From: a virus
Direction: 5' to 3' (one strand)
Length of the DNA stretch: 26,414 bases
IMG/VR virus record: IMGVR_UViG_3300019880_000008
Coordinates: 1-26,414 of that record
The position numbers were made by a program, and so were the translations under genes. Positions 9,363 through 23,563 of the stretch are shown in pieces. Within the stretch, counting starts at the first letter, position 1. Every line of letters starts with the position of its first letter. The notes below the pieces were generated by a model that saw nothing but the letters and a program-made list of their open reading frames with translations, ran no database searches and had not been told where the DNA came from.

Positions 9363-11963
9363 ATGCCCGATGACTCCGGCCGCCCCGACCTCCTCGAAGT
9401 CGCGGAGGACCGCGCACAGGAGCGCTACGAACTGGAACACCACGGCGGAGGGTCACCCCCACCCCCAGCGGTCGACCCCATCCGGGGACTGCACTATCAG
9501 GACGAGACCGGCTTGCACCTCCTCGGGGAGGGCTTTGCCGCAGCAACCAATGGCAGCCTGCTCGCGAAGACAACGGTTGGAGGCCAACCGGACATTGCTC
9601 TGGTCGACCCCGCCACCTCGAGCGGTGAGCTCGACGTCACGTCCTTCGGCGCGCACTGGGACGGAACGACAGATGACACTGCGGCGCTCGAAGCCGCGAT
9701 CGCGGCCGCTGTCGCTGCGGGCGGCGCCGTGATCAGGCTGCCCCCAGGTACGGGACTGATCGCGAAAACGATCAAGCTCCCGAAGAACCTCACCGGCATG
9801 GTGATCCTCCGTGGCTCCGGTGCCCTCAACAGCACCCTGAAGTGCGGAGAAAACACGCTCTTCACGTTCGCGAACACCGTCGCCGGTGACACCGTCGGGA
9901 ACGTAGCGTTCGAAGACTTCTGCGTCGACGGGGCTAACCTACAGGTCGCCAACAACAAAGCCGTGCCGGTTCTGATCGGGACGACCGAAAGCTGCAATAC
10001 GAGGGTCAACATCCTGAACGTGCGCGTCGCGAGGGTGCGCGGGATCAACGTCCCGAACCTCGGCAAAAAAGAAGGCGGCCGCCGCTGGATCTACCTCAAC
10101 GTGTTTCAGGAAACCCCCAACGCCGCACTGAACCGGATCGAAAACATCGACGTCGCGGACTGCGACTTCGCGGGCGGCCAATACGGCGTGTACGTCGGCG
10201 CGTTCGGGAAAGAAGCGCTCCCCGCGAACGTCTACATGGCGCATGTCCGCATCAGGAAGGTGCGGCACCTCATCCCCGAACTCGCCCCCGAATTCGGCTA
10301 CAACGCGCACGTCCAGCTCGGAGCGTGCGCTTGGTCAGACGGGCAGGACATCCTTGTCGAGGGGTGCTACGGCGAGAACTCCTGGGACGTCGGGATCGAG
10401 ATGGACATCCCCGGCACCGTGCGCGACTGCACGATGGTCAACTCCAACGACACCGGGTTCCTCTGGACCTCCTACAACGCGGCGTTCACGAAAGCCCCGA
10501 ACGTCGCACAGCTCACCGCCACAGCCGCGGTCGGTGCGACCATAGTGAAAGTCGCGAGCGGCGGGCTGAGCGTCGGCGGGATCGTGACTTTCGGTAGCCA
10601 GGGTCACGGCGAAGAGACCCGCCAGATCAAAACGATCCCGAACGGCGAATCGATCGAACTCACCGAAGCGCTCACGATCGAACACGCCAACGGGAGCTGG
10701 CTCGCGCAGGCCGAGAGCACCGGTAACGCGCGGTGGCGCGGCGAGAACATCGAGGCGCTCCGCACCCTCGCGACCCCTGGCTCACAGAGCGGCGTCCGGA
10801 TCCAGAACGCGGAAAACACGCGTCCCGCGCCCGCGCTCATCATCGACGGGTACAAGTACACGCGCACGTACACCGGGCACCCGGAAATCCTCGGGGAGGT
10901 CATCGGCTCTTCCTGCGGCACCGAAGCGATCCCGTTCGGCACCCCAGCGGCGGTGCACATCAAGAACATCAAGGCCGACATCGCCGGCGAGCAATTCGCC
11001 GGCAGCGAAACGGTCCAGTTCAGCCCCTTCTGGTTCGTATGGACGGCCCCAGGCGTACCGCTCGAGCTCTCGGGCGAACTGACCGTCGAAGGTGCCGGTA
11101 CGACATCCACCGGCAAAATCTCGGGGCGCCTCATCGACGTGAAAGGCAACGCCCTGCTCGAGCTCGACATCGCGACGAAGTGGACGATCAAAAAGACCGG
11201 CGGGGAAGCGTGGCGCGCGATCGCGCTGAACCTCTCCCGCGCCGGCGCGATCTCTGGCCGCATCCGGCATCGCGCGCGGCGTAGCGTCATCGAAGAAGGC
11301 GGCGGCGAACAGCGCGGCGTGCGGCTCGGCAAAGGCTGCGGCCATGCCTCCAAGCGCATCACTACCACCATCACCGGCGGTGCGCTCGCCGCGAAATCCA
11401 CGACGATCCCGGTGCCCTCCACCGAAGGCTTCAGCGTGGGTCAGCGCATCGTCGTCGACGCGCTCAGCACCGCCAAAAGCGAAGTGTTCACGATCACCTC
11501 GCTCGTCGCGAACACCTCGATCACGATCGCGAGCGTCGGCAACGAACCTGGCACCCTCGTGGAACACGCCAACGGCGCGGTCGTGGCGGCGCTCACCGAA
11601 CTGCAGGTCGTCGACTGTGACTGGGTGGGCCTCGGGACCGCAGGCAGCGGTCTCAGCGCCGAAGACGAAGTGGTGCTCGGCGGCGTCCGCTCGCGCGGGT
11701 GCATATTCCCGACGAACGCCAACAACACCACGATCACGCCACCCGAATCGAACAAGTTCTTCCAGGTCAACACGGGCCGCGCCGGGAACGTCGTGATCAA
11801 GGGCGGCACCGTCACCAAAGTCGACTGGGCATCCAACCCGAACCTGGCGAGCCAGGTCGCGGCCGCCACGAACTGCTCGATCCACGTCTCACCGGGTGAC
11901 CTCGTGAAGGTCACCTACAGCGTGGTCCCGGAATCCATCGTCTTCATCCCCGACCGGGTCTAA
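9363..11963 (+). CDS. Tailspike with pectate-lyase-type parallel beta-helix
   Basis: The 866-aa product is a probable receptor-binding or polysaccharide-degrading tailspike. Residues 1-90 are Pro/Gly-rich and likely attach it to the virion. At about residue 92 comes SFGAHWDGTTDDTAALEAAI, then GGAVIRLPPGTGLIAKTIKL. This is the standard opening of the pectate_lyase_3 beta-helix family. Repetitive short strands (LRGSGAL, VAFEDFCVDGANL, IENIDVADCDFAGGQYGVYV) continue to about 470. A roughly 70-residue beta domain appears twice (about 383-450 and 668-745). Catalytic residues cannot be named. The start is ATG 9363 with GGGAGAGGAGG before it. Its location between the neck and tail-tube genes is unusual, and glutamate codons favour GAA more than in its neighbours. 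Confidence 0.85.
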   Translation: MPDDSGRPDLLEVAEDRAQERYELEHHGGGSPPPPAVDPIRGLHYQDETGLHLLGEGFAAATNGSLLAKTTVGGQPDIALVDPATSSGELDVTSFGAHWDGTTDDTAALEAAIAAAVAAGGAVIRLPPGTGLIAKTIKLPKNLTGMVILRGSGALNSTLKCGENTLFTFANTVAGDTVGNVAFEDFCVDGANLQVANNKAVPVLIGTTESCNTRVNILNVRVARVRGINVPNLGKKEGGRRWIYLNVFQETPNAALNRIENIDVADCDFAGGQYGVYVGAFGKEALPANVYMAHVRIRKVRHLIPELAPEFGYNAHVQLGACAWSDGQDILVEGCYGENSWDVGIEMDIPGTVRDCTMVNSNDTGFLWTSYNAAFTKAPNVAQLTATAAVGATIVKVASGGLSVGGIVTFGSQGHGEETRQIKTIPNGESIELTEALTIEHANGSWLAQAESTGNARWRGENIEALRTLATPGSQSGVRIQNAENTRPAPALIIDGYKYTRTYTGHPEILGEVIGSSCGTEAIPFGTPAAVHIKNIKADIAGEQFAGSETVQFSPFWFVWTAPGVPLELSGELTVEGAGTTSTGKISGRLIDVKGNALLELDIATKWTIKKTGGEAWRAIALNLSRAGAISGRIRHRARRSVIEEGGGEQRGVRLGKGCGHASKRITTTITGGALAAKSTTIPVPSTEGFSVGQRIVVDALSTAKSEVFTITSLVANTSITIASVGNEPGTLVEHANGAVVAALTELQVVDCDWVGLGTAGSGLSAEDEVVLGGVRSRGCIFPTNANNTTITPPESNKFFQVNTGRAGNVVIKGGTVTKVDWASNPNLASQVAAATNCSIHVSPGDLVKVTYSVVPESIVFIPDRV
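10507..10713 (+). repeat. Tailspike internal domain repeat, copy 1
   Basis: The segment encodes a run from about AQLTATAAVGATIVKVASGG to EHANGSWLAQ. It matches copy 2 at about 11362-11595 in order of strands (VGATIVKV with AKSTTIPV; SVGGIVTF with SVGQRIVV; EHANG in both). The identity is moderate, and the bases GAACACGCCAACGG are shared exactly. Confidence 0.5.
11362..11595 (+). repeat. Tailspike internal domain repeat, copy 2
   Basis: The segment encodes a run from about TTTITGGALAAKSTTIPVPS to EHANGAVVAAL. It is the second copy of the small beta domain seen at 10507-10713. The copies probably stack or trimerise along the spike shaft, which is an inference. Confidence 0.5.
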
Positions 11964-12394: not shown

Positions 12395-13474
12395 ATGTCA
12401 CGCTGGTTCGGATTCATCGATGACCCGACCGCTGGTGGGTCCACGTTCGACGTCCTGTCGGGGGGTCTCGCGATCCCAGTGCCCACGACGTTCGCGCCGG
12501 TCAGCGCGGCGCAGGCGGACCCCGGCTTGAACGAGCTGGACCGCAAGAACGAGGTGCGTGGCCGGCGTGCCGATACCGCGCCGATTAGCTTCGCGTCCGC
12601 GCCGAAGATGACGTTCGAGGCGCGCGGCTACCCGAAGCTCGTGCGTCCGATGCTCCGCAAAGCACTGGGCGGGTCGATCAGTTCGACCGGCACCGCGCCC
12701 GCAGCGATCTCCTCGACCGTCGGGACGCTGCAGAGCGGGAACCTCCCGGCGTTCATCGGGTGGCTTCTCCGTGAGGGGCAGCTGGACCGCATGACGGGCT
12801 GTGTCATCAGCGAGATCGCTTTCGACTTCCCCGTCGACGGGGAGAGCACGGTCCAGGTCACCGCTGACGGGCTCTTCCACGACACCGACGACTCGGGGGC
12901 CGCGGAAGACCCCAACGGGGAACCCGCGCTCGCGCTCCCGACGGCGTCGTACACGGGGTACACCGACACGTTCATGCTGAGGGACGCCACCGCGTTTCGT
13001 GGCGCGGGCGCCGGGGTGGAGATCCCGAACCTCGCTGGGTTCGGCCTGACGTTCAACAACGGGCTGATCGAGGACTTCCGGTCGCGTTTCCGCCCGAACC
13101 ACAACATCGAGTCGGCCGTGATCGACACGGTCACACACAAGCTGTGGTACCCCGAGCGCCACAAGCTCGGTGCGCAGCAGGTCACGGGCAAAATCGACCT
13201 CAGCGACGTCGACCCCGACGCCGAGCTGAAGCACCTGCTCACGCACGCGGAGAAGCTCGTGTTCGAAGTCGCCGCGGGTCCGCTCGGGACGACGCCGGCA
13301 GCGGACGAGATGATGCGCCTCACGCTCTACAAGCACGCGACCACCGGTGGTGGAGCCGAGCCGCTCGTCCGCGAAGGTGACCAGGTCTCGAGCTTCGAGT
13401 TCTCGGGTTACCTCGACGAAGGTGTCAACAAGGACGTCGAGGCGACGTTCGTCGGCACCGCCGCGCTCACGTAA
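12395..13474 (+). CDS. Major tail tube protein
   Basis: The 359-aa product probably polymerises into the tail tube. What is seen: an N-terminal SRWFGFIDD, followed by ELDRKNEVRGRRADTAPISF. Beta-rich stretches include MTGCVISEIAFDFPVDGEST, VQVTADGLFHDTDD and a C-terminal QVSSFEFSGYLDEGVNKDVE. The ISEIAFDFPVDGESTVQVTADG pattern, a strand and turn repeated late in the sequence, is typical of phage tail tube proteins of the Phage_tube_2 type. The start is ATG 12395 after AAGGAGGAGG (12378-12387). It precedes the chaperone and tape measure genes, as is usual for the tube gene. Confidence 0.8.
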   Translation: MSRWFGFIDDPTAGGSTFDVLSGGLAIPVPTTFAPVSAAQADPGLNELDRKNEVRGRRADTAPISFASAPKMTFEARGYPKLVRPMLRKALGGSISSTGTAPAAISSTVGTLQSGNLPAFIGWLLREGQLDRMTGCVISEIAFDFPVDGESTVQVTADGLFHDTDDSGAAEDPNGEPALALPTASYTGYTDTFMLRDATAFRGAGAGVEIPNLAGFGLTFNNGLIEDFRSRFRPNHNIESAVIDTVTHKLWYPERHKLGAQQVTGKIDLSDVDPDAELKHLLTHAEKLVFEVAAGPLGTTPAADEMMRLTLYKHATTGGGAEPLVREGDQVSSFEFSGYLDEGVNKDVEATFVGTAALT

Positions 13475-13481
13475 GCGCGTC

Positions 13482-13817
13482 GTGGACGACATCCAGGCGA
13501 CCGCGGAGTCCGCGCGGCGCCGGGTCAAGCGCGCGAGCGGCCTACTCAGGGACGCCGCACGCGACCTCATGGCGATCACCGAGGGCCAGGAGGCCCTCGG
13601 TGTCCACCACGTACACGACACGGAGAGCGTGCAGGGTGCGCGCGACCTCATCTCGATGGGTGTCGCGCGCTACGGCGCGGTCGACGTGATCGTGATCGCG
13701 CGACCCACGGGCCGCGCTGCTCGCATCACCCCCACCACGGCCGCCCAGGCGGCGAAGGAGAACACGCATGGCACCCAGGAGCACCACCAAGCAGCAGCAG
13801 CTCGAGCGAGGCCCTGA
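13482..13817 (+). CDS. Small basic protein of unknown function between tube and chaperone
   Basis: The 111-aa product starts DDIQATAESARRRVKRASGL, then has HHVHDTESVQGARDLISMGV and a hydrophobic strand AVDVIVIARPTG, and ends in a Gln/His/Ala/Arg-rich tail. No family is recognised. GTG 13482 lies 8 bases after the tail tube stop and has only a weak ribosome binding site; in-frame starts further upstream would be inside the tube gene. The last 50 bases overlap the tail chaperone gene in another frame, so the tail residues may be an accident of that overlap. Position suggests a tail assembly role, which is inference. Confidence 0.5.
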   Translation: MDDIQATAESARRRVKRASGLLRDAARDLMAITEGQEALGVHHVHDTESVQGARDLISMGVARYGAVDVIVIARPTGRAARITPTTAAQAAKENTHGTQEHHQAAAARARP

Positions 13818-14361
13818 CGGCGCGAAACCCGGCCAGGAGGTCCTCGACGCGCCCGATCGTCGGTACGCGTTCGACGCGGACGGCCGCGCGAAGACCCGCG
13901 AGGACGCGCCGGTCACGATCGGCGGGATGGTCTTTCACCGCCGCCGCAAGAACTGGGAGGCCACACGCTCGCTGCGGAAGCTGTTGCGTGTCCAGGAGCT
14001 CGAGGGTGGACGCGCGGAGCGGTTCCGTGCGCGTATCTCCGCGCTGACGCAGGAGATCCGCGGTGTCCGCGACGCCGAGACCGGCGAGTGGACGCGCCCC
14101 CCACTAGCGGACGAGCAGCGCATCGAGCAGATCGAGGCGCAGGTCGACGAACTGAACGAGAAGGTCGATGAGTGTGATGTCGAGTCCGACCAGGCGGCTT
14201 ACGAGATCATCGCGCTGCTGCTCCGCACCGAGGAGGGCGCAAGCCCAGATGTCGGGCATCTCAAGGAGTACCTGGACCTTGAGGAGGCCGGTGACCTCGC
14301 TGGCGCGCTCGCTGGGGGCGGCGAGGTGGCAGAGGGCCCTACGGCACCCCCGAGTTCCTAG
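13768..14361 (+). CDS. Tail assembly chaperone, unshifted form (G-like)
   Basis: The 197-aa product is the probable lambda gpG equivalent, which binds the tape measure and recruits tube subunits. Its N-terminus is basic. The middle contains VTIGGMVFHRRRKNWEATRS. A helical segment follows with EQRIEQIEAQVDELNEKVDE (likely coiled coil, about residues 118-137) and AAYEIIALLLRTEEG. The C-terminus ends GEVAEGPTAPPSS. The start is ATG 13768 after AAGGAG (13755-13760). Six codons before its stop lies a slippery heptamer that allows a -1 shift into the next frame (separate entries). It sits between tail tube and tape measure, the position conserved for this pair. Confidence 0.8.
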   Translation: MAPRSTTKQQQLERGPDGAKPGQEVLDAPDRRYAFDADGRAKTREDAPVTIGGMVFHRRRKNWEATRSLRKLLRVQELEGGRAERFRARISALTQEIRGVRDAETGEWTRPPLADEQRIEQIEAQVDELNEKVDECDVESDQAAYEIIALLLRTEEGASPDVGHLKEYLDLEEAGDLAGALAGGGEVAEGPTAPPSS

Positions 14362-14555
14362 ACGCCGTGATGTGGCTCGCCCACCACTTCCCCGGCCTGC
14401 ACCTGCGCCCCGAGGACGCGGACCAGCTCACGCCCGAGGAGACAGCAGCGATGGTCAAGGCCGGGAAGAAGATCCTCAAAGGCGAGGCAGACGAGCGGTG
14501 GGCGCACACGCGGATCATCGCGATGTCAAGCGGCGCGCGAATCAGGGGGTTGTAG
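13768..14555 (+). CDS. Tail assembly chaperone frameshift product (GT-like)
   Basis: A -1 shift at GGGCCCT (14334-14340) joins codons 13768-14340 to the reading frame 14340-14555, giving a 262-aa fusion. Across the junction the product reads AEGP then YGTPEFLDAVMWLAHHFPGL, a smooth sequence. It continues with DQLTPEETAAMVKAGKKILK and ends SSGARIRGL. The downstream frame has no convincing separate start or ribosome binding site; the ATG at 14370 begins mid-motif. In lambda and most long-tailed phages GT contacts both the tape measure and the tube protein. The frameshift is inferred from sequence only. If it did not occur, 14367-14555 would be a stand-alone 62-aa gene. Confidence 0.8.
14334..14340 (+). 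promoter_or_regulatory. Programmed -1 frameshift slippery site GGGCCCT
   Basis: In the zero frame the bases read G GGC CCT, an exact X XXY YYZ heptamer. After re-pairing, both tRNAs read GGG and CCC. The zero-frame stop TAG follows at 14359-14361 and the -1 frame stays open to 14555. A clear downstream pseudoknot was not worked out. Confidence 0.8.
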
Positions 14556-14557
14556 CT

Positions 14558-15118
14558 ATGGACGCGCAGACGGCCGCTGACATCCGAGTCTGTGAGCACT
14601 GCGGCGACGCGTTTGTGCGTCCCGCTGGGACCCGCCCGGGTCGGCGCTTCTGCAGCCGAGACTGCGGCTTCGCTGCGCGCCGCGCTGACCCGATAGCCCG
14701 GTTCTGGGCGCGCGTCGATAGGTCAGGTGGCCGCGCGGCATGCTGGCCCTGGCTCGGCGCCAAGACACGCGGCCGCGGTCGGTGGAAGGTCGACGGACGA
14801 CAGGTCTATGCCTATCGGTACGCATATGAGGTGCTCGCCGGTCCGATTCCCGATGGCCTCGTGCTTGACCACCTGTGCCGTAACCCACAGTGCTGCAACC
14901 CCAGACACCTAGAGCCGGTCACATCGAGCGAGAACACGAGGCGCGGCGTCTTGGGCGTGCCGAGGCCGCAGCAGGTGCGCGAAGCAATCTCCGCAGGCCA
15001 CCTCACTTCAGAGCGTAGTAAGGCCGCCGTCGCGGCTAGGCGTGGCGTCACGCGGGACCCCTCAATAGGTCGCAAGATCAGTGCTACGAAGCGCGCCGCT
15101 TACGGGACGATGCCATGA
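14558..15118 (+). CDS. Free-standing HNH homing-type endonuclease
   Basis: The 186-aa product is a probable DNA-cutting selfish element. An N-terminal zinc finger shows Cys12, Cys15, Cys32 and Cys36 (CEHCGDAF...FCSRDCG). The region FWARVDRSGG...CWPWLGAKTRGRG and GPIPDGLVLDHLCRNPQCCN lead into the HNH motif. Asp104-His105, Asn114 and His117 are the likely catalytic and metal residues, followed by NTRRG. The C-terminal 50 residues (SERSKAAVAARRG, SIGRKISATKRAA) look like a DNA-binding helical module. ATG 14558 lies two bases after the chaperone stop with a weak GGGGG site. Its stop overlaps the tape measure start as ATGA (15115-15118), so it sits inside the tail operon without breaking a gene. 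Confidence 0.85.
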   Translation: MDAQTAADIRVCEHCGDAFVRPAGTRPGRRFCSRDCGFAARRADPIARFWARVDRSGGRAACWPWLGAKTRGRGRWKVDGRQVYAYRYAYEVLAGPIPDGLVLDHLCRNPQCCNPRHLEPVTSSENTRRGVLGVPRPQQVREAISAGHLTSERSKAAVAARRGVTRDPSIGRKISATKRAAYGTMP

Positions 15119-18100
15119 GCGGCGCGACGATCAACATCAGATGGGTCCTCGACGTCGTCGATCGCGGCGAGACCGCGAAGATGCTGAAACAGGACCGTGC
15201 TATCCGCACAGGCCTCGCGCAGACCGACGCGCAGTACCACAAGACGGCCGCGTCGGCGGCATCCGCTTCCGCGCGGCAGGTGCAGGCATCCCAGCGCGCC
15301 GCGACCGCGACACGCCAGGAGGGCCGCGCGCAGGTAACGGCGTCCGCAGAGGTGCAGCGGTACGCCGCAGCTCAGCGTGAGGCGCTCACGATCGGCTCGA
15401 GGATCATCGCGCAGTCCGCCGAGGTCACAGCGGGCTACCGCCGCGAGGGCCGAGCCGCATCGGCGAGCGCGGCACAAGTCTCGCGTGCCGCGCGTATCCG
15501 TGCCTCAGCGGCGTCTGCTGCGCGGCGCGGCGCGGGTGCAGTCATTGGCGCTGGTGCGGCGGTGGGTGGCGCGGTCCGTAACGCCGCCTCGACAGCTGGC
15601 GTCGGTGTGGGGCTCGCGGGGTTCGCTGGGGTCGCTGTCGCGGCGAAAGAAACGATCGGGTTCGACAAGGCGCTGCGGAACGTCAACTCGATCGCGCAGC
15701 TCTCCGAGAAGCGACTACAGGCCGTGGGTGCCGCGCTGCGGTCCCTCGCGGGGAAGACCGCGCAGGCCCCAAAGACGCTCGCTGAAGGGATGTACGACCT
15801 CGTGTCGTCGGGCTTCAACGCGAAGCAGTCCCTCACCATCGTCGGCGCGGCCGCTCGAGCCGCGACCGCGGGCCTCACCACGACAGATGTCTCGACGAAG
15901 GCGGTCGCGGCGGTCCTGAACGCCTACCACCTGTCCGCGGACAAGGCGCGAGCCGTCAGCGACACGCTGTTCGCGACCGTCAATCGCGGCGTCATTACCT
16001 TCGAAGACCTCGCGTCCAACATCGGGACGGTCCTGCCGTTCGCCTCGTCGCTCGGAGTGAACCTCGGACAGGTCGGCGCTGCGATCTCCACGATGACGAA
16101 GCAGGGGATCTCCGGCGAGCTCTCTATCACGTTCCTCAAGAACGCGATGGTGTCGTTCCTGAAGCCCTCCGTGGGGATGGCGGCAGCGCTCAAGAAGACG
16201 GGCGCGTCGTCCGCCGAAGCGCTGATCAAGCAAAAGACGTTCGCGGGTGCGCTGAAGGCCGTCATCGCGACTACCGACGGCTCAAAGAAGTCGATCGCGA
16301 AGCTTTTCCCGAACATCAGGTCACTGACGGCCGCACTCGCGTTGACCGGGAAGAACAGCAAGTCAGCGGCAGCGGACATCAAGTTCTTCAAGAACACCTC
16401 GGGTCAAACCAGCCTCGCGCTCTCCCAGCAGTCGCAGTCGATCAGCTACCAGTGGAAAAAGCTGAAGGCCGAGGCGTCCTCGCTCGCGATCGGGCTCGGC
16501 ACCAAGCTGGTGCCCGCCGGGCTGAAAGTGCTGGGTGTCCTCACCTCGATCGGGAACAAGAGCACCCCGGCAGGCGGCGCGGTCTCGAGCGTCCTCGGCG
16601 GGCTGTCCGCTGGGCTGAAGGGGCACGACGCGCCGAGCAAGGTCACTGCCGCCCCGCGCGTCGCTGGGCACATGCGTGGCCCGGACGAAGTACAGGAACC
16701 GTCGAAGGTCGCGCAGGTCGCCGCGAAGATCGGGCAGGGCGCGCGCACCATCGGCACGGCCGCTGTCTCCGCCGGGAAGCAGCTCCTCGACGCGTTCAAG
16801 CCGGCGCTCCCGTTCCTACAGAACATCCTGCTGCCGCTGCTCATCGGGATCGGCAAGGGTGTCCTCGGGTCCGTCGTCGCGGCGTTCAAGGTCCTCGTCC
16901 CGATCATCAAAGTCGTCGCGACCGTCCTCGGCGCCGTCGGTCGGGTCGCCGCGCCGTTCAAGAGTGTCATCGAAGGCATCGGGACCGTGATCGGGTTCGT
17001 CGCCGCCGGCCCCATCCTGAAGTTCCTCGGTGCGCTCGGGAAGATCGGCATCGTCTTCACAATCCTCGCGGTCCCAGTGCGCCTCGTGACCGGCCTATTC
17101 GGGCTCGCCGGCAAAGCGATTGGCAAACTCCCTAGCGTCCTGCAGAAACTCGGCGGCCTGCTCGAGAAGGTAGGCGGCTGGTTCGGCAAACTGCCCGGCA
17201 AGATCGGCAGCGTCGCCGGTGGGGTGCTGAGCGCCGCTGGGCATCTCGCGATCTCCGCAGGCAAAGGGCTGGCGAGCCTCCCCGCGAAGCTCGCCGTGAA
17301 CGCGTACTCCGCGGGGCGCGCGGTCATCGACAAGCTCGGCTCGTGGATCGGGAAAGCCGGGAGCGTCGCCCGCAAGATCGCGAGCGTCATCGTCGGGGCG
17401 ATCCGTAGCCTGCCTGGGAAGGTCGCGGGGCTTGCCAGCGACCTCGTCAAGACGTTCGCGGACCTCGGAAAGAAAATCGTCTCGGCGATCGTGAAGGGGA
17501 TCAAAAGCGCCCCGGGCGCGGTCATCGACGCGATCAAGTCGCTAGTTCCGAACGCCGCGAAGGGCGTCGTCGACAAAGCACTCGGCCTCGCTGACAAAGT
17601 CAATCCGGTGAAGCTGTTCAAACGGCGTGGCGGGGTCGTGAAGCGCTACCAGGGCGGCGGTCTCGTCGACGCGTTCGTGTCCCCCGGCGAGCAGGTGCTC
17701 TACGGCGCCTCCAGCTGGACGGTGCCGGGCCCGCGCACGGCCGCGGACAGCGTGTTCGCGCGGCTCCCCGTAGGCGCCGCTGTCCTCACCGGTGACGGCC
17801 AGTCGCGGATGTCCGCTGGCGCGTCGATCGCGGAAGCGATCGCGACACAGGCACCACACTTCGCGGCAGGCGGGATCGTCCGCGGGAAGGTCTCCACGTT
17901 CGGTCCACCCACCGAGCCGAGAGGCAAGACAGCATCCGGTGCGACATCTGGTGCTCGAGGGGTCGCTATCCGCCCTGGCGCGACCTACCAGTCCGGTCGC
18001 TCAACGCTCGGGCAGTACTGGCGGATCACAATCGCGGGTCACTCCGGCGCGCTGAAGCAAACCGATCTCGGGCCGAACGAGAGCACCGGCCGACGGATCG

Positions 18101-20463
18101 ACGTGACGGGCGCCGGCGCGAAATTCCTGGGCATCGACCCGAGGCACTTCCCGACCGACAGCACCGGCACCGCGGAACTCCTCGGTAAGTCAGCGAAGGG
18201 CGCGAAGGGCAGCGTCAAGGGGCGCGTCCCGATCATCCTCGGGCGCTCCCGCTCCCGCGCTGGCCTCGTCGCGGACGCGCTCTCTCAGGGCGTAGACGCA
18301 GGCGCGGCTGGGCTCACGAGAGCGGAGATCGCGCGCGCGAACCGCGGCGCACGAGGCGCTGAGCTCAGCCCGATCATCGCCGCGATCGCGGAACAGACCG
18401 GCGCGGTCGACAAGGCCAGCAGCAGCCTCAGCGTCATCAAGGGCGGCACCGCAAAGGGCTCCGGGGGCGCCGCACGGCTCGAGTCCGTCGCGTCACGAAT
18501 CAAGGTGCCCTACGTGTACGGCGGCGGCCACAGCGGGTTCTCCTCGAACCCCGCCGGCCTGGACTGCTCCGGTTACCTCTCTGACGTCCTTCACTTCGGT
18601 GGCGCAAGCCCCACCCTAAAGGCACCCGCTGCCACCGGTGGCCTCTCAAGCTATGGGCAGAGCGGCGCCGGCCGCTACGTCACGATCCACATCCGCAACA
18701 GTGCGCCAGCGCACACGATGCTCACGATCGGCGGGCGCGGCTACTCCTCGGGGAACCGCGCGACGGGGCGGCTCTCTGGCCGTAACGACGTCAGCGCCGC
18801 GTATCTCTCCACCCTCCCGACGAAGCGGCACCCCATCGGGTTGCGCCGCGGCGGGATCATCGGACGGTTCCGCACAGGCGGGAGCATCCCCGGCGCGGGT
18901 GGCGCGCTCAGCACGGGTGTCTCGAGGGCCCTGACGTTCGCGGGCGGCTCCCTCAACAAGCTCGACGAAGTGATCGGGCACGCCGCGCAGGCAAGGCTCG
19001 ATGCGCTGTACAAGGCGATCCTCGCGCGGGTGCGCAAGGGCGGGGACGCGAAGACCGTGAAGCGGCTGCAGGCCGTGCTGAGCCTCATCGACTTCGAGGT
19101 CGGCCGGCGTATCGGGGCACTCCAAGCCTCGATCGAGAAGCGCACCACCGGCATCGAACACGGCCAGAACGTCGTAGACCGCACGCTACGCAAGCAGGGC
19201 CTCGACACCTCAAGTGTCGCGGGGCTCAACGTGCAAGCAGCAGCGGACGCGCAGCAGACCAAGGCGCGCCAGAAGAACGTCGCAGACGCAAAGCGCGCGC
19301 TCGCGATCGCGAAGCGCACAGGGAACCGCCAGCAGATCGCTGCCGCGGCCTCCCAGCTCACGCAGGCCCAAGAAGACCTCGACGAGTCCGTCACGAAGGG
19401 CATCGAGGACACACGGGCGCTCGTCATCGCGACGCAGCAGGACGTCATCGACCGCACCAGCCGAGCGATCGAAGAAGCCCACGCCCAGCTCGACCGTTCC
19501 CTGCGGAAGGCTGGGGTCGACGCCGGGTCCGCAGCGGGGATCGCGGCGACCACCGGCGTCGACGACGCGACCGTCGCGATGCGTGCCTCGGTCGTTGACA
19601 GCGTCAGCGCCGCGCTCGCGCACACCGCAGACGCCGGTGCACGCCAGCAGCTCACCGACCAGCTCAACCAGGCACGCTCGGATCTCGACGAGGCGCTCAC
19701 TGTCCAGATCGAGGATCGCCGCGCACTGATCCGCCAGGCAGCGCAGGAAGCCGTCGACACAGCGTCCTTCGGGGTCGACTCGATCCAGAACGCTCTGTCG
19801 GGCCTCGATATCAGCGAGCGCCTGAACCGCACCGCGGAAACACCCGCAGGGCTCCTGCAGAAGGCGCAGGCGATCCAGTCGCAGCTGATCCCGGTGCTGC
19901 AGAACTCGCTAGCGGCACTGAACAAGCAGTACGGGGCGCTCCTCTCGATCCAGGACAGCGCCGGCGCGCGCCAGGTGCTCCTCAGCATCCAGCAGGCAGG
20001 TAACGACATCGCGAGCGCGCTGGCGGACAGCGCTGACCTGATCCGCCAGGCCGCGGAGCAGGCCGCGCAGGAAACGGTGGACCGCGCCGCGCACGGCACC
20101 TCGCTCGCGCAGCTCGGGGAGCAGCGCCTCGAGCTCGAGCAGCGCCTCGCGGGCACATTCGACGCAGGCGGACAGTCCCGCGCGGACTACATCAACCAGG
20201 TCCTCATCCCGTCGCTGAATACCGAGCTCGCCGCGCTGAACGCGCAGCTGAACACCGCGAGCAAGGAAGGCGACGCGACACTCGCCAACCAGATCGCCGA
20301 GGCGATCGCCGGGAAGCAAAACGAGCTGCTGCAGTCCCAACTCGACGCGATGGAAGAGGTCGCTCAAAACACCAGCGACCGGAAGGTCGGCGGCACGCTC
20401 GGCTTCAACTACGGGAACGAGTCGCTCTCCGACGCGATCATCGCTGTAGGGAACGGCTCGTGA
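15115..20463 (+). CDS. Tape measure protein with RlpA-like and NlpC/P60 domains
   Basis: The 1782-aa product sets tail length and probably helps DNA pass the cell wall. Residues 1-150 are Ala/Arg-rich helix. About 178-470 is a PhageMin_Tail-type domain (GFDKALRNVNSIAQLSEKRL, MYDLVSSGFNAKQSL). About 560-668 is strongly hydrophobic. YQGGGLVDAFVSPGEQVLYG follows near 845. About 923-1025 resembles an RlpA-like double-psi barrel (STFGPPTEP, then TDLGPNESTGRRIDVTG with Asp984). About 1125-1225 is an NlpC/P60 peptidase-like domain with VPYVYGGGHSGF, LDCSGYL (Cys1151) and SAPAHTML (His1200). Residues 1345-1765 are coiled-coil-like with four imperfect repeats. The ATG overlaps the HNH stop by four bases. 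By the usual 0.15 nm per residue, full-length use would give a tail below about 270 nm. Confidence 0.92.
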   Translation: MSGATINIRWVLDVVDRGETAKMLKQDRAIRTGLAQTDAQYHKTAASAASASARQVQASQRAATATRQEGRAQVTASAEVQRYAAAQREALTIGSRIIAQSAEVTAGYRREGRAASASAAQVSRAARIRASAASAARRGAGAVIGAGAAVGGAVRNAASTAGVGVGLAGFAGVAVAAKETIGFDKALRNVNSIAQLSEKRLQAVGAALRSLAGKTAQAPKTLAEGMYDLVSSGFNAKQSLTIVGAAARAATAGLTTTDVSTKAVAAVLNAYHLSADKARAVSDTLFATVNRGVITFEDLASNIGTVLPFASSLGVNLGQVGAAISTMTKQGISGELSITFLKNAMVSFLKPSVGMAAALKKTGASSAEALIKQKTFAGALKAVIATTDGSKKSIAKLFPNIRSLTAALALTGKNSKSAAADIKFFKNTSGQTSLALSQQSQSISYQWKKLKAEASSLAIGLGTKLVPAGLKVLGVLTSIGNKSTPAGGAVSSVLGGLSAGLKGHDAPSKVTAAPRVAGHMRGPDEVQEPSKVAQVAAKIGQGARTIGTAAVSAGKQLLDAFKPALPFLQNILLPLLIGIGKGVLGSVVAAFKVLVPIIKVVATVLGAVGRVAAPFKSVIEGIGTVIGFVAAGPILKFLGALGKIGIVFTILAVPVRLVTGLFGLAGKAIGKLPSVLQKLGGLLEKVGGWFGKLPGKIGSVAGGVLSAAGHLAISAGKGLASLPAKLAVNAYSAGRAVIDKLGSWIGKAGSVARKIASVIVGAIRSLPGKVAGLASDLVKTFADLGKKIVSAIVKGIKSAPGAVIDAIKSLVPNAAKGVVDKALGLADKVNPVKLFKRRGGVVKRYQGGGLVDAFVSPGEQVLYGASSWTVPGPRTAADSVFARLPVGAAVLTGDGQSRMSAGASIAEAIATQAPHFAAGGIVRGKVSTFGPPTEPRGKTASGATSGARGVAIRPGATYQSGRSTLGQYWRITIAGHSGALKQTDLGPNESTGRRIDVTGAGAKFLGIDPRHFPTDSTGTAELLGKSAKGAKGSVKGRVPIILGRSRSRAGLVADALSQGVDAGAAGLTRAEIARANRGARGAELSPIIAAIAEQTGAVDKASSSLSVIKGGTAKGSGGAARLESVASRIKVPYVYGGGHSGFSSNPAGLDCSGYLSDVLHFGGASPTLKAPAATGGLSSYGQSGAGRYVTIHIRNSAPAHTMLTIGGRGYSSGNRATGRLSGRNDVSAAYLSTLPTKRHPIGLRRGGIIGRFRTGGSIPGAGGALSTGVSRALTFAGGSLNKLDEVIGHAAQARLDALYKAILARVRKGGDAKTVKRLQAVLSLIDFEVGRRIGALQASIEKRTTGIEHGQNVVDRTLRKQGLDTSSVAGLNVQAAADAQQTKARQKNVADAKRALAIAKRTGNRQQIAAAASQLTQAQEDLDESVTKGIEDTRALVIATQQDVIDRTSRAIEEAHAQLDRSLRKAGVDAGSAAGIAATTGVDDATVAMRASVVDSVSAALAHTADAGARQQLTDQLNQARSDLDEALTVQIEDRRALIRQAAQEAVDTASFGVDSIQNALSGLDISERLNRTAETPAGLLQKAQAIQSQLIPVLQNSLAALNKQYGALLSIQDSAGARQVLLSIQQAGNDIASALADSADLIRQAAEQAAQETVDRAAHGTSLAQLGEQRLELEQRLAGTFDAGGQSRADYINQVLIPSLNTELAALNAQLNTASKEGDATLANQIAEAIAGKQNELLQSQLDAMEEVAQNTSDRKVGGTLGFNYGNESLSDAIIAVGNGS
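19168..20370 (+). repeat. Four imperfect ~100-residue repeats in the tape measure C-terminus
   Basis: Units begin near residues 1352 (NVVDRT), 1443 (DVIDRT), 1545 (EAVDTA) and 1653 (ETVDRA), at spacings of 91, 102 and 108. Units 1 and 2 share QLTQAQEDLDESV...IEDTRAL against QLNQARSDLDEAL...IEDRRAL. Units 3 and 4 are more divergent. They are protein-level repeats with no long exact DNA identity. Confidence 0.55.
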
Positions 20464-22533: not shown

Positions 22534-23084
22534 GAACCCAAGCCGCCGAGCTCGGGAGCCTCGGATCGCTCATGTCCGTGCCGGTCGGCGGCCAGATCGC
22601 CGGTCCGTACTCTGCTCTGCCCGTGGTGCCTGGTGCGGTGTTCGACTGGGCGGACGGCGGTCTCATCGACCGGTCCACTTACGCCGCGTTCTATGCCGCC
22701 CAAGGCGGCAGCGCTCATGTGTACAACGGCGGCGTTGACCCCGGCTCCAACAAGGTCCGCAAGCCCGACAAGCGCGGCCGGGTCGCTATCGGAGCTGACA
22801 ACTTCGGCCAGGGCGCCGCCGGGCGACTCACTGTCTTCAATCGTGCCCTTGGGCAGAACGGTGGCGAGGAGCGCCATCAAAACACGGTTTCGGAGCTAGC
22901 GAATCACTCTCACCAGATCCCGATGTTCTCGGCGAATGCTGGTCATGGCTATTTCGCGAGTTACGTCCAAGCGAGCGACGGCTGGACGGGAATCGGGAGT
23001 CTCTCTCCAACTCAGGGCGCCGACTTCCCGCACAACAACCTCCAACCGTATGAGATAGACACAATTATCGTCAGAATCGCATGA
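22530..23084 (+). CDS. Tail collar / short tail fibre protein (gp12-like tip)
   Basis: The 184-aa product resembles the collar domain of short tail fibres. What is seen: GAVFDWADGGLIDRSTYAAF (about residues 35-54), NKVRKPDKRGRVAIGADNFG, then NGGEERHQNTVSELANHSHQ with His126-x-His128. The ending NNLQPYEIDTIIVRIA is diagnostic for collar tips. In T4 gp12 an HxH pair binds a metal ion on the trimer axis; the same is inferred here. The start is ATG 22530 (ATGA overlap with the fibre gene). The stop overlaps the LAGLIDADG gene as ATGA (23081-23084). The protein is short, so it may cap a fibre formed with the preceding LamG protein. Confidence 0.85.
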   Translation: MRTQAAELGSLGSLMSVPVGGQIAGPYSALPVVPGAVFDWADGGLIDRSTYAAFYAAQGGSAHVYNGGVDPGSNKVRKPDKRGRVAIGADNFGQGAAGRLTVFNRALGQNGGEERHQNTVSELANHSHQIPMFSANAGHGYFASYVQASDGWTGIGSLSPTQGADFPHNNLQPYEIDTIIVRIA

Positions 23085-23563
23085 GTCGCTTTCGCTCTCA
23101 GGAGTTCGCCGCGGGATGGCTGTCGGGCATGATCGACGGCGAGGGCAGCGTGTACATCGGCCCGGGCCGAGGGCGCTACGTGAAGATCGCGAGCACCGAC
23201 CACAACCTCGTCGACGCGACGATTGAGGCGCTCGCCATGTTCGACATCGACGCGCGGGTCCAAGTCACCCGCCACGACCACGAGCGGTGGGCCGACCTCT
23301 ACAACGTGGTCGTCGAGCGCCGCGAGCTTGTCCATCGCCTGCGCGATGTCGTGGACCTCCAGCACATGCTCAAGTCGAAGAAGCTCGCGGCCATCGGCGA
23401 TATAGACGTGACGGCCCACGGGGCTCACAACGCCGCCAAGACGCACTGTCCGCACGGTCACCCCTACGACGAGGCGAACACGTACGTGTACAACAACCAG
23501 CGCTTCTGTCGGGCGTGCAATCGCGCTCAGTATCACCAGCGCAAGCGGAGGGCCGTTGCGTGA
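23081..23563 (+). CDS. LAGLIDADG-type homing endonuclease with C-terminal zinc finger
   Basis: The 160-aa product has one LAGLIDADG motif, WLSGMIDGEGSVYIG (residues 13-27, likely catalytic Asp19 and Glu21), so it should act as a dimer. Residues 30-110 keep the family alternation (YVKIASTDHNLVDATIEALA, HERWADLYNVVVERRELVHR). The end, CPHGHPYDEANTYV...RFCRACNRAQYHQRKR, has Cys123, His125/His127, Cys143 and Cys146. I know this module mainly from the C-termini of phage HNH endonucleases. Both ends are coupled: ATGA overlap with the collar gene and GTGATG overlap with the next gene. No gene appears interrupted. Single-motif length is normal; the extra finger is the oddity. Confidence 0.85.
   Translation: MSRFRSQEFAAGWLSGMIDGEGSVYIGPGRGRYVKIASTDHNLVDATIEALAMFDIDARVQVTRHDHERWADLYNVVVERRELVHRLRDVVDLQHMLKSKKLAAIGDIDVTAHGAHNAAKTHCPHGHPYDEANTYVYNNQRFCRACNRAQYHQRKRRAVA

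Follow-up and report, generated by a model that had tools for sequence, protein, structure and literature searches.

Gene order around the tail chaperone locus

The window, by which we mean the whole stretch of 26,414 bases of a virus record analysed here, has a GC content of 68% and belongs to an uncultivated, divergent tailed phage. Its structural genes follow the order terminase, portal, protease, capsid, head-tail adaptor, tail tube, G, T, HNH and tape measure. The features relevant to the chaperone genes G and T are:

12395..13474, plus strand, tail tube protein (Pfam Phage_tube_2, E 4.8e-7)
13768..14361, plus strand, G, zero-frame tail assembly chaperone of 197 aa (ATG with AAGGAG upstream, coding score, gene order)
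14323..14328, plus strand, Shine-Dalgarno-like GAGGTG (duplex -11.0 kcal/mol; spacing rule from PMC4066793)
14334..14340, plus strand, putative slippery heptamer G_GGC_CCT (sequence, codon-usage change point, same C_CCTAC at other chaperone junctions)
14337..14340, plus strand, core C_CCT within the heptamer (CCCTAC is 14337-14342)
14359..14361, plus strand, TAG stop of G, six sense codons past the heptamer
14340..14555, plus strand, T, -1 frame extension of 71 aa plus stop, predicted to be read only after a shift (coding score, TAC_6, start codons without ribosome binding site)
15115..20463, plus strand, tape measure protein (PhageMin_Tail, E 4.9e-27; phrog_991, E 1.1e-38)

The G/T pair is placed after the tail tube and before the tape measure gene, which is the lambda-type order, and consists, also as in lambda-type pairs, of two overlapping ORFs with the second in the -1 frame. 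T is separated from the tape measure gene by an HNH endonuclease gene (14558-15118; HNH_3, E 9e-12; phrog_826, E 5.8e-33) that is probably a homing-type insertion, and a further HNH endonuclease-like gene is present in the minor tail region (23081-23563; phrog_1492, E 6e-13). An 866-aa tail-spike-like protein (9363-11963; phrog_7458 and others) is encoded between the head-tail connector genes and the tail tube, an unusual position for a spike. Between tail tube and G, a reading frame at 13482-13817 has gene-like codon usage and overlaps the start of G by 50 bases; it has no family match.

The G/T overlap and the heptamer

The G frame ends with GAG GGC CCT ACG GCA CCC CCG AGT TCC TAG and the -1 frame is open from 14295 to its stop at 14553-14555. 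Sequence and coordinates agree with an earlier sequence-only reading, according to which GGGCCCT (14334-14340) lies in exact X_XXY_YYZ phase six codons before the G stop: a correctly phased slippery sequence close to the end of G, as expected for a lambda-type pair, and the sole in-phase XXXYYYZ within the 14295-14361 overlap. The smooth junction after EGP that was also claimed is reproduced by translation: a shift at the heptamer would join 191 aa of G to the 71 aa of T in a predicted fusion of 262 aa (junction ..EGP-YGTPEFLDAVMWLAHHF..), with the -1 frame continuing as YGTPEF. The 62-aa ORF given for 14367 is indeed present and starts with GTG. CCT makes up 6.8% of the Pro codons in the window and is thus an uncommon proline codon that permits cognate re-pairing. 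Two other runs considered as slip sites, TGGGGGC (14313) and ACCCCCG (14346), were rejected, as both tRNAs cannot re-pair.

In-phase XXXYYYZ heptamers occur in the window genes with a frequency of 0.0023 per codon, which predicts ~0.05 heptamers for an overlap with 21 allowed positions, and when the peptide is kept fixed, an in-phase heptamer turns up about half the time (~0.5); the heptamer alone is therefore weak evidence. Stronger support comes from the codon-usage change point and from the rarity of C_CCTAC: there are nine in-phase occurrences in 188,825 background codons (4.8e-5 per codon), and the chance of finding the motif, which was taken from phiC31-family junctions, in a 21-codon overlap is ~0.001.

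Codon usage and translation start signals

A codon-usage model that was trained on the other window genes and ignores the slip motif places the best switch from the G frame to the -1 frame at 14337-14339, inside the heptamer. Later switches cost 6 nats at 14358 and ~12 nats at 14364-14370, costs that also include a penalty for read-through of the G stop. The stretch from the heptamer to the first possible T start allows a fairer comparison, with +2.1 nats for the -1 frame and -3.2 for the G frame. Coding scores per codon are 0.279 for G and 0.228 for the T region (14340-14552); T is within the range of the other window genes (mean 0.317, 5% point 0.11), and wrong frames have their 99% points at -0.17 (-1 frame) and 0.16 (reverse).

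The only start codons available to T are GTG 14367 and ATG 14370, and at both the anti-Shine-Dalgarno energy is -2.5 kcal/mol, no better than background (G: -8.8, tube gene: -15.9, tape measure: -4.0 kcal/mol). T is thus without its own translation start signal, as is typical of lambda-type pairs. This absence is supportive, not decisive, because some structural genes of the window, such as the tape measure gene, also start weakly.

T could instead be a separate protein that is made by termination-reinitiation at GTG 14367 or ATG 14370, with the heptamer present by chance: both starts are only 5-8 nt past the G stop, a distance that permits coupling, the tape measure gene likewise has a weak ribosome binding site, and the RemusLoopin pair and others are annotated as two ORFs. 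We consider this improbable, given background-level start signals at both codons, the -1 frame codon usage that is already visible at 14340-14366, and the fact that two-ORF pairs of the phiC31 family share the conserved C_CCTAC with pairs annotated as joined (see below). Less probable still is a shift elsewhere in the overlap or slippage at the level of transcription: there are 21 allowed positions, and the runs in TGGGGGC and ACCCCCG, but GGGCCCT is the only in-phase heptamer and coincides with the codon-usage optimum, and a run of C3 or G5 is short for polymerase slippage.

Family matches of G and T

Profile searches with Pfam and phrog gave no confident family match for G. T resembles Pfam Phage_TAC_6 (PF09550), a short T-type chaperone domain whose profile positions 11-37 align with residues 19-45 of T at 17.0 bits (E 0.0082), below the gathering cut-off of 23.4 bits, so that membership is not established. 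Across all six frames of the window there is a single TAC_6 match, at 14388-14468 (16.3 bits, E 3.7e-4). No relatives of G, T, tube, portal or terminase were found in IMG/VR, GTDB genome scans for relatives also gave none, and tblastn searches of isolated phages with G, tube and T as queries returned nothing credible. AlphaFold models computed from the single sequences of T (pLDDT 68) and G (pLDDT 54) had no credible structural match. One phage related by its tape measure protein (L002) was considered, and its chaperone is unrelated to that of the window.

Candidate stimulatory elements and strength of the putative slip site

The GAGGTG upstream of the heptamer is a plausible stimulator of the shift: by duplex energy it ranks among the best 1.6% of coding positions; some Shine-Dalgarno-like motif is in range at 19% of coding positions. 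Neither a stem-loop nor a pseudoknot was found 5-8 nt past the heptamer (folding z between -0.75 and +1.0), and a simple, crude enumeration of H-type pseudoknots downstream of the heptamer also gave none. Many bacterial -1 sites are without downstream structure, and the missing structure does therefore not exclude function. At the other C_CCTAC sites described below, downstream structure is found only in SF3 (z -2.6) and perhaps in one metagenomic locus (L073, z -1.8).

All 64 heptamers have been measured in E. coli (PMC4066793): AAN or UUN sites outperform CCN sites on average, all-pyrimidine CCY is better than CCR, and sites that mix a purine X with a pyrimidine Z have a lower average strength. 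Given a strong stimulator, six tetramers are effective, C_CCU being one of them, and G_GG.C_CC.A is one of three heptamers that stay below threshold even with a strong stimulator (PMC4066793). The description of the window site as canonical thus holds for its geometry and not for its strength, since both CCN and purine-X/pyrimidine-Z sites are weaker in E. coli (PMC4066793). Among the XXXYYYZ sites annotated by SEA-PHAGES, all four bases occur at X, Y and Z (PMC10885494). In lambda, the GT:G ratio is low (30:1; PMC5009743), and by analogy a weak slip site would fit such a ratio.

C_CCTAC at other phage chaperone junctions

As homologues of G and T were not found, we inspected the chaperone junctions of phages whose portal or capsid proteins resemble those of the window. 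Having been collected by similarity, these phages are not independent of each other; together with the window they cover about three unrelated chaperone families. In the phiC31 family, the junction reads GAC CCT ACC with the -1 product GPYR in 11/11 distinct phages examined; these codons are invariant while the flanking codons vary, and the G/T junction of phiC31 itself is annotated 'ribosomal slippage'. Four capsid-related metagenomic loci (L067, L073, L077 and L093) have CGC CCT ACA with the product APYT or TPYT, and other loci found by their capsid have junctions with GGGAAAA, GGGAAAC, CCCAAAA or GGGGGAA instead.

Seven of ten further actinobacterial phages have C_CCTAC, either as AAC CCT AC (TinaLin, Archimedes, Murp, MissRona, Huffy and BFK20) or as CGC CCT ACG (SF3); it is absent from the junctions of Gsput1, DrSierra and Kromp. 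Murp, Archimedes and MissRona also contain an overlapping GGGAAAC, which leaves their exact slip site ambiguous. The -1 frame of BFK20 opens precisely at AAACCCT, and the shift must therefore take place there or further on. The base triplet in front of C_CCT is GGG in the window and AAA in the Gordonia and Corynebacterium phages, and elsewhere there is no triplet (GGA, GCG, CCG, ACG). C_CCTAC thus recurs in unrelated chaperone pairs, relatives of the window G/T pair itself not being found. A sequencing error or recent frameshift mutation, with G and T being one intact ORF or a broken gene, is very unlikely: this is a single metagenomic virus record, and one wrong base in a G/C run would give the same picture, but the break has the usual -1 direction and is exactly where tailed phages normally shift between chaperones, and its motif is also present at this junction in isolated, fully sequenced phages.

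Comparison with known systems

The -1 frameshift of lambda gpG/gpGT and the wider family of tail assembly chaperones were reportedly described by Xu, Hendrix and Duda in 2004. Both are reviewed in PMC5009743. The window pair resembles gpG/gpGT in gene order, -1 direction, a slip near the end of G and a short C-terminal T in front of the tape measure gene; it differs in its C_CCU-based slip site (lambda has the A-rich GGGAAAG), and the searches detected no sequence similarity to lambda G or T. With phiC31 gp41/gp42, phiBT1, TG1, Vash, RemusLoopin and others it shares CCT AC in the same phase with a -1 product GPY.., a short T domain, a stop a few codons on and a GC-rich genome, whereas the P-site codon of this group is GAC (GGACCCT, no triplet) and that of the window GGC. 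Homology of the window T to phiC31 T appeared likely by eye (HF.GL), but was not demonstrable by a profile search of the six-frame window, and consequently only the junction motif is used as evidence from phiC31. The Gordonia and Corynebacterium phages TinaLin, Huffy and BFK20, the first two with chaperones annotated as joined, likewise have AC after an in-phase X_XXC_CCT where the -1 shift is placed; here, the triplet is AAA and the T domain is from another, longer family.

A probable programmed -1 frameshift at GGGCCCT

The data are best explained by a programmed -1 ribosomal frameshift at GGGCCCT that would yield G and a G-T fusion chaperone, a reading to which we assign a probability of roughly 0.9. 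It agrees with the sequence-only reading and is supported by gene order, the switch in codon usage, T start codons without ribosome binding site, the weak TAC_6 match and the shared junction motif; several of the unrelated actinobacterial chaperone pairs with this motif are annotated as joined. Points against it are that homologues of G and T were not found, the lack of downstream structure, the weakness of CCN and purine-X sites in E. coli (PMC4066793), a mismatch in the P site and a TAC_6 score below cut-off.

The slippage itself, its efficiency, the tRNA steps and the role in tail assembly are what we infer from these data. One gene would give two products, G of 197 aa from most ribosomes and the G-T fusion of 262 aa from a minority. 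At the slip, the P site would be occupied by GGC and the A site by CCU; the proline tRNA in the A site would re-pair from CCU to CCC and the glycine tRNA in the P site would slip from GGC to GGG with a wobble mismatch. The upstream GAGGTG may promote this backward movement, after which the ribosome would read on in the -1 frame (YGTPEF..) up to 14555. C_CCU, the A-site tetramer, is probably the core of the signal, and the GGG triplet may only help. By analogy to lambda gpG/gpGT, the G part would bind the tape measure protein and the T part would recruit tail tube subunits.

In kind, the window site is ordinary: a lambda-like programmed -1 frameshift of G/GT type, well supported at the sequence level. 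Its annotation would be corrected to a fusion chaperone in place of an isolated 62-aa ORF. The recurrence of C_CCU_AC is the more interesting by-product: it indicates that GC-rich phages have repeatedly placed CCU, a rare codon, within C_CCU_AC where the two chaperones join. The odds are about even that -1 sites with AC after C_CCU form a separate, under-recognised class in chaperones of GC-rich, mainly actinobacterial phages, a class that relies on the proline tRNA in the A site moving from CCU to CCC, works whether or not there is a P-site XXX, mostly lacks a hairpin, and occurs in at least three unrelated chaperone families; if so, the window adds its G_GGC_CCU form. As a junction motif, this recurrence may be new; the passages considered from PMC10885494 do not describe C_CCT without P-site triplet, although an earlier description is possible. 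A literature search returned no paper that joins GGGCCCT with frameshift and slippery. C_CCU_AC offers a simple rule for locating chaperone fusions that have no A-rich heptamer, and as a site class it is directly testable on actinobacterial ribosomes.

Published records of phiC31 relatives, BFK20 and SF3 list G and T separately or omit T despite an in-phase C_CCTAC (L008 2702-3183; L010 131-615; L011 114-580; L012, L015, L016 and L017; L102 512-1287; L103 539-1335). Three further loci (L034 12237-12653, L044 13386-14228 and L046 11298-11693) have a -1 overlap without XXXYYYZ, but with CCGGAATC near the junction, possibly another slip-site variant.
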